Shown here piece by piece: positions 16,731-61,960 of a stretch of 64,000 nucleotides of DNA. Position 1 is the stretch's first letter. Each line of letters starts with the position of its first letter. Source of the stretch: Paenibacillus daejeonensis DSM 15491. Its GTDB lineage: Bacteria; Bacillota; Bacilli; Paenibacillales; Paenibacillaceae. Position numbers and translations under genes: made by a program. The stretch lies in assembly GCF_000378385.1 (NCBI RefSeq), contig NZ_KB899672.1, positions 1 through 64,000 of the forward strand, written 5' to 3'. The notes beneath the pieces are model-generated. The model saw only the letters and a program-made list of their open reading frames with translations. It was not told the origin of the DNA and searched no databases.

Positions 16731-16759
16731 ATAACCGACTTATTTATAACTTTATTTAT

Positions 16760-16929
16760 CAGGCTGTTAAAGAAAGCCGGAGAGGCACGGAATCGAATCT
16801 GGAGAAGCGAAGCGTTCGCCTTTGTCCCCGGATTTCACCCTTATAAGGGGGAAGAATCAAAGAAATCTGGGGACAACAGCGATCGGAAGATCGATCCGTG
16901 ACTATAGGCTTTCTTTATTTAATAGCCTG
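16760..16929 (+). mobile_element. structured repeat family 1, forward reference copy
   Basis: The 170-bp copy has ends CAGGCTGTTAAAGAAAGCC and GGCTTTCTTTATTTAATAGCCTG. Inside, CACGGAATCGAATC pairs with GATCGATCCGTG, TTTGTCCCCGGATTTC pairs with GAAATCTGGGGACAA, the apex is CCCTTATAAGGG, and CGATC-GGAA-GATCG forms a stem with a GNRA-type loop. Flanks ATTTAT and ATTAAT differ at one position, so this may be a worn 6-bp target duplication. It sits just past the calcium-type ATPase. Confidence 0.8.
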
Positions 16930-54608: not shown

Positions 54609-54763
54609 TTGAAAAAAGGCCGAAGAGGCACGGAATCGAATCTGGAGAAGCGAAGCGCTCGCCTTTGTCCCCGGATTTCATCCGCTAAAGCGGTTAGAAA
54701 ATCAAGAAATCTGGGGACAACAGCGATCGGAAGATCGATCCGTGGCCGTAGGCTGCTTTTCAA
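54609..54763 (+). mobile_element. structured repeat family 1, copy between regulators
   Basis: Inverted ends are TTGAAAAAAGGCC and GGCTGCTTTTCAA. Core: CACGGAATCGAATCTGGAG, TTTGTCCCCGGATTTC, apex ATCCGCTAAAGCGGTT, AAATCTGGGGACAACAGC, CGATCGGAAGATCGATCCG. It ends about 27 bp before the start of the following AraC gene, inside its leader. Confidence 0.78.
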
Positions 54764-59983: not shown

Positions 59984-60898
59984 GTGAAAGCCATTACGGT
60001 GCAAGAGCTCGCCCAGCGGTTCTCCCTGGAGATCCTTGCTGGAGCGGAGCAGGTTCATCGCCGGATTACAAAAGCCAGACCGCACCGGCCAGGGCTGGAG
60101 TTTGTCGGGTACTTTGATTTTTTTCCGCAGGAGCATGTCCAGATTCTGGGCAAAAAAGAGATCAACTATCTCCATACGCTAAGCGAAGAGGAACGCAATC
60201 ATCATATCGGTAACATCGTTAAATACCATCCGCCTTGCTTCGTAGTCACGGGTAATCAGGATGGGCTCAAGTACTTGACGAAGTATTGTGAGTTAGAGGG
60301 CATTCCACTGCTGCGGACGGGTGCAGCGACGAGCGAATTTATCGCCCGGCTGGATGCCTTTCTGGTGAAGCATCTGGCGGAGGAAATCTCCATTCATGGC
60401 GTCTGTGTCAATGTCTCGGGGATTGGCATTCTGCTGCGGGGCAAATCAGGCGTAGGCAAAAGCGAGACCGCCCATACGCTGATCCGGCGTGGACACCGTC
60501 TGGTGGCAGATGATATCGTGGTGCTGAAAAAGCTCAGTCCTCAGACGATTCTGGGGACGCATAACGAGTCTACCAAGGAGTTTCTGGCGCTGCGCAGCAT
60601 CGGATTGGTGAATGTCTCGCGTCTATACGGACGCAAAGCGTTTCAGGAGGAAACCCGCATCACACTCGACATCGAACTGACGAAGTGGAAAGACGATGCG
60701 CTGAATAATGACCTGGAGCTCGTGGAGAAATTTACGGATTATATGGGGGTCAAGGTGCCCCATATCGAGGTGCAGCTGCAGCCGGGCAGGGATGTCGCGG
60801 GTCTGATCGAAGCGGCCGCCAACAACTGGTATCTGCGGCAGCAAGGCTATAGCGCGGCAGAGGATTTCATGAAACGGCTGGAGTCAGACTTCAATTAA
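59984..60898 (+). CDS. HprK-like protein (HPr kinase/phosphorylase homologue), divergent
   Basis: 304 residues, colinear with HprK. The N-terminal domain has RPGLEFVGYFDFFP-like text, the conserved IHG is at 137-139, Walker A GKSGVGKSETA at 153-163 and HRLVADDIVV after it, and the end is LQPGRDVAGLIEAAANNW. The HprK signature (EIRGLGIINV in Bacillus) reads ALRSIGLVNV, losing its Glu and Gly. The usual lgt neighbour is missing. Probably a paralogue with altered phosphatase behaviour, not the housekeeping HprK. GTG start after a GCAGGAAA site. Confidence 0.8.
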   Translation: MKAITVQELAQRFSLEILAGAEQVHRRITKARPHRPGLEFVGYFDFFPQEHVQILGKKEINYLHTLSEEERNHHIGNIVKYHPPCFVVTGNQDGLKYLTKYCELEGIPLLRTGAATSEFIARLDAFLVKHLAEEISIHGVCVNVSGIGILLRGKSGVGKSETAHTLIRRGHRLVADDIVVLKKLSPQTILGTHNESTKEFLALRSIGLVNVSRLYGRKAFQEETRITLDIELTKWKDDALNNDLELVEKFTDYMGVKVPHIEVQLQPGRDVAGLIEAAANNWYLRQQGYSAAEDFMKRLESDFN

Positions 60899-60906
60899 CG
60901 CAGCAT

Positions 60907-60945
60907 AGGCGGTACAGTGGACATCAGCCCTGTACCGCCTTTGTT
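60907..60945 (+). terminator. rho-independent terminator
   Basis: AGGCGGTACAG pairs with CTGTACCGCCT and is followed by TTGTTG. Confidence 0.8.
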
Positions 60946-60964: not shown

Positions 60965-61150
60965 TTATTTCTTCAGCACAGGCAGCATCCGGGAATCCGC
61001 GAGCATCTCCGAGCCGCAGATGGGACAGTTCGGGTTCGAATCAAATGAAAAATTGTCCCGCATCCAGCACTCGCAGCCGTCGCTTAGACAAGACCAGATC
61101 GATGTTTGTTCTTCCGGCGTGGGTTCGGCACTCTTCTTGGAATAGTAGAT
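60965..61150 (-). CDS. YdjO-like zinc-ribbon protein (cold-inducible family) with apparent ATC start
   Basis: 61 residues, reading leftward. IYYSKKSAEPTPEEQTSIW is followed by cysteines at 21, 26, 28, 42 and 45 (SCLSDGCECWMRDNF; CPICGSEM), the layout of YdjO-type small proteins. Relatives start M-YY; here that position is ATC, exactly 7 bp after a strong AGGAGG (minus strand). No ATG, GTG or TTG lies in frame between this site and the conserved region. AUC would be a rare, IF3-sensitive start. A sequencing error or frameshift is the alternative. Confidence 0.7.
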   Translation of the reverse strand: MYYSKKSAEPTPEEQTSIWSCLSDGCECWMRDNFSFDSNPNCPICGSEMLADSRMLPVLKK

Positions 61151-61217
61151 AACAACCCCTCCTGATCATGATAAGGTACGGCCCGCTGCACAATAACAGC
61201 TCGTCATGGCCACAGTT

Positions 61218-61389
61218 CAGGCTGCCCTCAAATAGGAGCCTACGGTCACGGATCGATCTTCCGATCGCTGTTGTCCCCAGATTTCTCGATTGTTAACCGC
61301 TCTAGCGGTTGAAATCCGGGGACAAAGGCGAACGCTTTGCTTCTCCAGATTCGATTCCGTGCCTCTCCGGCACTTTTGAGCGCAGCCTG
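61218..61389 (-). mobile_element. structured repeat family 1, reverse copy
   Basis: Ends CAGGCTGCCCTCAAA and TTTGAGCGCAGCCTG are inverted. Flanks ACAGTT and ATAGTT differ at one of six positions. In reverse complement the core is CACGGAATCGAATCTGGAG, TTTGTCCCCGGATTTC, apex AACCGCTAGAGCGGTT, AAATCTGGGGACAACAGC, CGATCGGAAGATCG. It lies between the YdjO-like and IF-3-like genes. Confidence 0.8.
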
Positions 61390-61471
61390 ATAGTTGGACT
61401 CTATCTGTTAGTTTATCCAAGATCGACCAGGCTTATTACTTAATATTTGTCCGTGAGAGGAGTCGTTAATA

Positions 61472-61960
61472 ATGTTAATGAATGAAAAGATCCGAGCCTC
61501 CGAGGTGGAATTAACTGGACTGGGCGGTGAGCCGCTGGGCGTCGTGTCCCGGGAAGAAGCGCTGGCACTCGCCAAAAAGGAAAAGGCTGATCTGGTCTGC
61601 GACTCGCTGATGAGCAGTCCGCCACTATGCAGGCTGGCGGCAAGAGGACAGGCGAAACGCCAAGCGCCGCTGGCCAAAAAAGCGGAGGGCGGTGCGCTGA
61701 AAACCAAAGAGATTCGATTAACGGCGCAAATCGAAGAACACGACTATGAGACCAAACAGCGCCAGATCGAGAAGCTGCTGCAGTCGGGTCAGTCGGCGCA
61801 GCTCGTGGTCCGACTCAAGGGCCGGCGGGGCGAGGGCGACCAGGCCAAGGCGCTGCTCCAGCGTTTGATCACTGACCTCCGAGAGGCAGGCAAGGCACAG
61901 ACAGGCATTCAGGTCAGCGGCAAGCAAGCCGCCGTTGTTGTAGAGCCGTTGAATCTTTAA
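61472..61960 (+). CDS. translation initiation factor IF-3-like protein, divergent paralogue
   Basis: 162 residues, colinear with IF-3. The N-terminal domain has MNEKIRASEVELTGLGGEPLG and SSPPLCRL; the C-terminal domain has KEIRLTAQIEEHDYETKQRQ and LVVRLKGRRGEGDQA. Two conserved segments are altered: MDYGKYxYEQ after PPxCR is replaced by AARGQAKRQ, and the ribosome-contacting RFRGREMAH is RLKGRRGEG. It is not followed by rpmI-rplT, as the housekeeping infC would be. It may change start-codon selection or bind ribosomes under stress. AGGAG is 9 bp before the ATG. Confidence 0.8.
   Translation: MLMNEKIRASEVELTGLGGEPLGVVSREEALALAKKEKADLVCDSLMSSPPLCRLAARGQAKRQAPLAKKAEGGALKTKEIRLTAQIEEHDYETKQRQIEKLLQSGQSAQLVVRLKGRRGEGDQAKALLQRLITDLREAGKAQTGIQVSGKQAAVVVEPLNL

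Follow-up and report, generated by a model that had tools for sequence, protein, structure and literature searches.

The window, that is, the whole stretch of 64,000 nucleotides analysed here (Paenibacillus daejeonensis DSM 15491, contig NZ_KB899672.1, positions 1 to 64,000), carries near its right end a small gene of the YdjO family, flanked by hprK, a dispersed repeat and a second gene resembling infC, with the following features:

59984..60898, plus strand: hprK (PF07475/PF02603), convergent neighbour of ydjO, syntenic in G001-G006
60965..61150, minus strand: ydjO coding sequence, an open frame (PF14169, E 2.3e-28; dN/dS 0.06 relative to the G004 orthologue, which has ATG)
61148..61150, minus strand: ATC at the aligned start-codon position of ydjO, a column with only ATG, TTG, GTG, ATT or ATC in 87 subfamily genes
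61158..61163, minus strand: Shine-Dalgarno (SD) sequence AGGAGG, 7 nt before the ATC; a GGAGG-like motif is kept in orthologues
61166..61168, minus strand: in-frame TGA upstream of the SD, with TAA/TGA closures also in G002, G006 and G319
61228..61400, no strand assigned: dispersed repeat of about 150 bp between ydjO and the IF3 paralogue, with at least 40 matches in the genome
61472..61960, plus strand: degenerate IF3 paralogue (second infC-like gene; PF05198 and PF00707, TIGR00168) with an ATG start, divergent from ydjO

The ydjO gene has 61 codons counted from the ATC, plus the stop at 60965-60967; the preliminary description had placed it correctly at 60965-61150 and left the strand, which is minus, unstated. 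The stop-to-stop frame (60965..61165, minus strand) translates as SGGVV-I-YYSKKSAEPTPEEQTSIWSCLSDGCECWMRDNFSFDSNPNCPICGSEMLADSRMLPVLKK, and its 5' end reads TGA TCA GGA GGG GTT GTT ATC TAC TAT TCC (minus strand, 5'-3'). Two further points described from the letters alone were borne out by the coordinates: AGGAGG (61163-61158) is separated from the ATC (61150-61148) by 7 bases, and no ATG, GTG or TTG is in frame upstream of the ATC, the frame being closed by the TGA six codons upstream. Because this TGA lies upstream of the SD, an N-terminal extension is ruled out, and the first in-frame ATG downstream is found past the second cysteine, within the metal-binding core, so that it cannot start a working YdjO. 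A closed frame of this kind must be either untranslated or started at a non-NTG codon, and a near-cognate codon, ATC, stands at SD spacing. The block SD-7nt-ATC-TAY-TAT-TCN-AAR occurred once each in the genomes G000 (the genome of the window), G002 and G006. A second, more distant ydjO of the same genome (contig C17) has an ordinary ATG start. Folding of the leader RNA around the ydjO start was not significant in any of the four species analysed (z +0.44 to -1.6), the Rfam search of the region returned nothing meaningful, and a scan of the region for sigma-70-like promoters and terminators found none.

The assignment to the YdjO family and the cysteine layout, both proposed in the preliminary description, hold: PF14169 matched with 98.2 bits (cut-off 27) over profile positions 2-59 of 59, and the four YdjO cysteines (C-x4-C ... 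C-x2-C; C21, C26, C42 and C45) are invariant in 19 sequences. The PF10782 zinc-finger family, presumably a relative of S. aureus CvfC1, gave a single weak match in the genus, within a 457-codon frame elsewhere, which has no bearing on ydjO. AlphaFold, run with 19 relatives, predicted a small beta fold (pLDDT 82), for which the best fold match was 9a6i_A (Foldseek E 9e-5, 42% identity; Z 7.0 vs 3.2 for the next); 9a6i, described by its PDB title as an integrative model of YdjO and SigA from B. subtilis, was missed by the sequence search of PDB and found by the fold search only. The likeness to B. subtilis YdjO thus covers both protein family and fold, and the modelled complex suggests that YdjO is a SigA partner. 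It is plausible that YdjO, with its four cysteines, acts as a zinc-ribbon partner of the housekeeping SigA and is required at a low level. The genetic setting is different, since B. subtilis ydjO belongs to a yeaA-ydjP-ydjO operon with sigma-W/sigma-E promoters (PMC3498285), whereas here it is a single gene near hprK.

When the aligned codon was compared across the seven members of the genus, ATC was found in G000, G002 and G006, ATT in G001, and ATG in G003, G004 and G005. The SD spacing of G000 is repeated in G002 and G006 (ATC) and in G001 (ATT), and in G002 and G006 an in-frame TAA directly precedes the SD. Outside the genus, G319 (genus g15) reads TGA GGA GGG TTT GTT ATT CAT, with ATT only, no NTG and a TGA that closes the frame; in P. 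nasutitermitis (L052) the codons are ATT ATT, and a single TTG is found nine codons upstream, ahead of the SD. In fourteen other g15 genes the ATT or ATC at the column is preceded, two codons upstream and 2 nt from the SD, by a TTG or ATG, which leaves the actual start of these genes ambiguous on sequence. The window gene belongs to the [YH][YF]SKK subfamily, and in a set of 87 distinct subfamily genes, picked by the motif after the start and so independently of the start codon itself, the column holds TTG (42), ATG (21), ATT (16), ATC (4) or GTG (4) and nothing else, so that 66 of the 87 are without ATG. The ATG share of 24% compares with 79% among the P. riograndensis genes whose transcription starts have been mapped (PMC5670726), which indicates that weak starts are favoured in this ydjO gene; in other ydjO subfamilies, such as MNYRKK and MYSRKK, almost every member starts with ATG. 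The preliminary description had taken the codon to stand where relatives have their start Met, which is right for G003, G004, G005 and P. alvei / P. apiarius (ATG), but many other relatives have TTG and G001 has ATT. It had also proposed orthologues with ATG at this place, along with a resequenced ATG here, as a challenge to the AUC start; ATG does occur in three of the seven genus members, showing that the weak start is not essential, but the other four have ATC or ATT, and initiation at AUC is therefore not refuted and is in fact well supported by the comparison (closed frame; ATC/ATT in relatives).

The same comparison bears on two other accounts of the ATC. If ydjO had lost its start and were decaying, or if an ATG had been misread as ATC in G000, we could explain why G004, the closest relative, carries ATG there behind a near-identical leader, and G000 is indeed a draft of 36 contigs. 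However, the independent genomes G001, G002, G006 and G319 carry ATT or ATC; a decaying start should also give ACG, AAG, CTG and so on, which appeared in none of the 87 genes; and the frame is intact with every cysteine kept. Strong purifying selection acts on the frame, dN/dS being 0.060 for the pair G000 (ATC) and G004 (ATG) and 0.050 for G002 and G006, which both have ATC. We consider decay or error very improbable. Initiation by another route, namely at the upstream GTT, at an out-of-frame start followed by a frameshift, or by read-through of the TGA, could draw on the out-of-frame TTG that overlaps the spacer in G000, but the SD-ATC spacers of G002 and G006 (GGGATCGATATC and GGGATCGCAATC) contain no NTG in any frame and these genes also have the in-frame TAA, while ATH at the aligned start is the only codon class common to all; such a route is just as hard to credit. 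Judged on sequence comparison, it is very likely that ydjO initiates at AUC.

The history of the codon was followed on two trees. On the species tree of the genus, built from infC loci with every node at 100, parsimony counted by hand required at least three AUG/AUH changes, and the ydjO gene tree showed five, three of them forced by starred branches. Such repeated switches indicate that the weak start was kept or regained, AUC/AUU being a maintained, recurrent state, and the conservation of AUC/AUU in relatives suggests that the cell may hold YdjO production low via start-codon checking.

The surroundings of the gene are less constant. In every genome of the genus ydjO is found close to hprK (synteny in G001-G006), in tandem in G002 and G006 (L125, L127) and inverted, hence convergent, in G000 (the window), G004 and G005 (L123, L124); small inversions or single-gene moves may account for the two arrangements. 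Between the convergent hprK and ydjO, an inverted repeat at 60908-60941 (GGCGGTACAG...CTGTACCGCC), identified by eye and followed by TTTGTTG, falls outside the loop limit of the terminator scan and is likely a shared hprK/ydjO terminator. The intergenic repeat of about 150 bp on the other side of ydjO recurs in the window at 54614-54760 and 16757-16910, the genome-wide count of at least 40 referring to the matches listed (181 first-look candidates), and in G001 another repeated stretch (GTTGCTTACGAAGTCGGATTTCCTTCAGAAATCCTG-like) is located just upstream of ydjO.

An ATT-type start is known for infC generally. Indeed, the canonical infC of all seven genus members (L018-L024) starts with ATT, 9 nt after GGAGG, and in all seven the leader reads GGAGGTGGAA(G/A/C)GTT-ATT, the stretch from the SD to the conserved N-terminus being free of NTG. 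The infC of E. coli and of this genome therefore resembles ydjO in having an AUU/AUC-class start behind a strong SD, and differs in that ydjO does not encode IF3, so that regulation of ydjO would act in trans. A further parallel is S. aureus cvfC1, which encodes a 61-residue putative zinc finger and has an AUU start that is fixed across staphylococci behind a strong SD (Ribo-Ret and reporter; PMC13009471); cvfC1 AUU and ccpN AUA are both used, at about 10% of AUG in poor medium by reporter (PMC13009471). CvfC1 is not known to be a YdjO homologue, and the cvfC1 start is fixed whereas AUG, UUG, GUG, AUU and AUC interchange between species in ydjO. The Streptomyces sigR gene has a GTC start that is repressed by IF3 and sets a low dose (PMC5472188); it resembles ydjO in that a gene bearing on sigma-factor function has a weak start, with the differences that the codon is GTC rather than AUC and that sigR is itself a sigma factor, while YdjO is at most a SigA partner.

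By analogy with these genes it is plausible, and from established IF3 biology likely, that IF3 represses the AUC start of ydjO. The strong SD 7 nt upstream would direct ribosomes to the AUC, where fMet-tRNA would mispair at the third base and IF3 would keep initiation low; the output might be about a tenth of that of AUG if the gene behaves like S. aureus cvfC1. The weak start would thereby set a low ceiling on YdjO and tie its level to free IF3, as for infC in the same genome. We regard with considerable confidence the reading of ydjO as a functional single gene that is very likely translated from AUC, probably set low and discriminated by IF3, and plausibly linked to SigA.

Which physiological signal, if any, would act through such a start is a separate matter. 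The preliminary description proposed a cold-linked fidelity switch, in which cold relieves AUC initiation and YdjO is induced. B. subtilis YdjO has been called cold shock-induced (Kaan et al. 2002, as cited in PMC6449464), and it is from this protein only that cold-inducibility was carried over to the Paenibacillus gene. In E. coli the ratio of initiation factors to ribosomes goes up about 3-fold in the cold (PMC6511846), and a rise of this kind would be expected to tighten discrimination and to repress AUC rather than relieve it; B. subtilis ydjO also belongs to a secondary sigma-W group (PMC3498285), so that cold need not be the main signal. The proposed switch is thus unsupported and, because of this E. 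coli behaviour (PMC6511846), we judge it unlikely in the form stated.

The neighbour at 61472-61960 has both the IF3_N and IF3_C domains and passes the NCBIfam TIGR00168 infC cut-off, with 62 bits vs 122 bits for the canonical IF3 on contig C4 of the same genome. The canonical residues (E. coli R25, Q33, Y70, K72, Y75, R99 and R131) are invariant in the seven canonical copies and mostly replaced in 42 paralogues, so a role as the housekeeping IF3 is unsupported; our literature search for papers on the effects of single IF3 residues found none, and a limited search for publications that describe IF3 paralogues or AUH starts in Paenibacillus also found none. Since NCBIfam still names it infC, the paralogue is probably annotated as an ordinary IF-3 and overlooked. 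It is present in most of the 394 family genomes (Paenibacillaceae), in most f6 genomes searched and in some other Bacilli. It adjoins ydjO in five of the seven genus members (G000, G001, G003, G004 and G005); in G309 (L129 8364-9130) and G322 (L130 8699-9483) a different ydjO subfamily lies about 80 nt upstream of it on the same strand, in what looks like an operon, and a third subfamily lies 1-4 kb from it in G167, G175 and G197. Altogether, 10 of the 42 genomes compared, from three genera, have it no further than about 5 kb from a gene of the ydjO family, a proportion that is not an unbiased rate as the 42 are the best matches listed. The neighbours of these sites differ (hprK in genus g1, not in the others examined), which means that the closeness is not one inherited block.

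From this recurrence one could suppose that the paralogue is a dedicated regulator, which competes with or replaces canonical IF3 on the 30S subunit and relaxes discrimination under stress, raising the AUC/AUU-started ydjO and infC. The association with ydjO-family genes across three genera, with different subfamilies and neighbours, and the loss in most copies of the residues that canonical IF3 has at E. coli positions 25, 33, 70, 72, 75, 99 and 131 would fit such a role. Adjacency, however, is no guide to the codon: the two genes adjoin in G003-G005, which have ATG, while G002 and G006 have ATC and are non-adjacent, so that the link between adjacency and an AUH codon fails, and most family genomes have the paralogue whatever their ydjO start. 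The four ATG species among the g10 carriers of ydjO-A are without the paralogue, which is no test, as ATG genes with the paralogue are common. Control of the ydjO AUC start by the IF3 paralogue is speculative, and we think that a regulator of this kind is improbable; the fuller proposal, which joins the two genes in one module where a second IF3 would adjust near-cognate initiation of a SigA partner, with the AUC/AUU starts of ydjO and infC as its targets, seems slightly less probable still.

Non-AUG starts are a known class, and ydjO, with its very likely AUC start, is a new, well-conserved member of it. To our knowledge, few AUC or AUU starts outside infC have been verified, and annotation pipelines that assume NTG starts overlook genes started in this way. 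The ydjO gene offers a natural series of AUG, UUG, GUG, AUU and AUC with a constant SD and protein, in which the value of a weak start is testable by comparison and reporters, and the IF3 paralogue next to it, widespread but seemingly not remarked on so far, opens the role of a second IF3 to direct testing. Should YdjO prove to be a partner of SigA, the gene would parallel sigR, the dose of a sigma-acting protein being limited via the choice of start codon.
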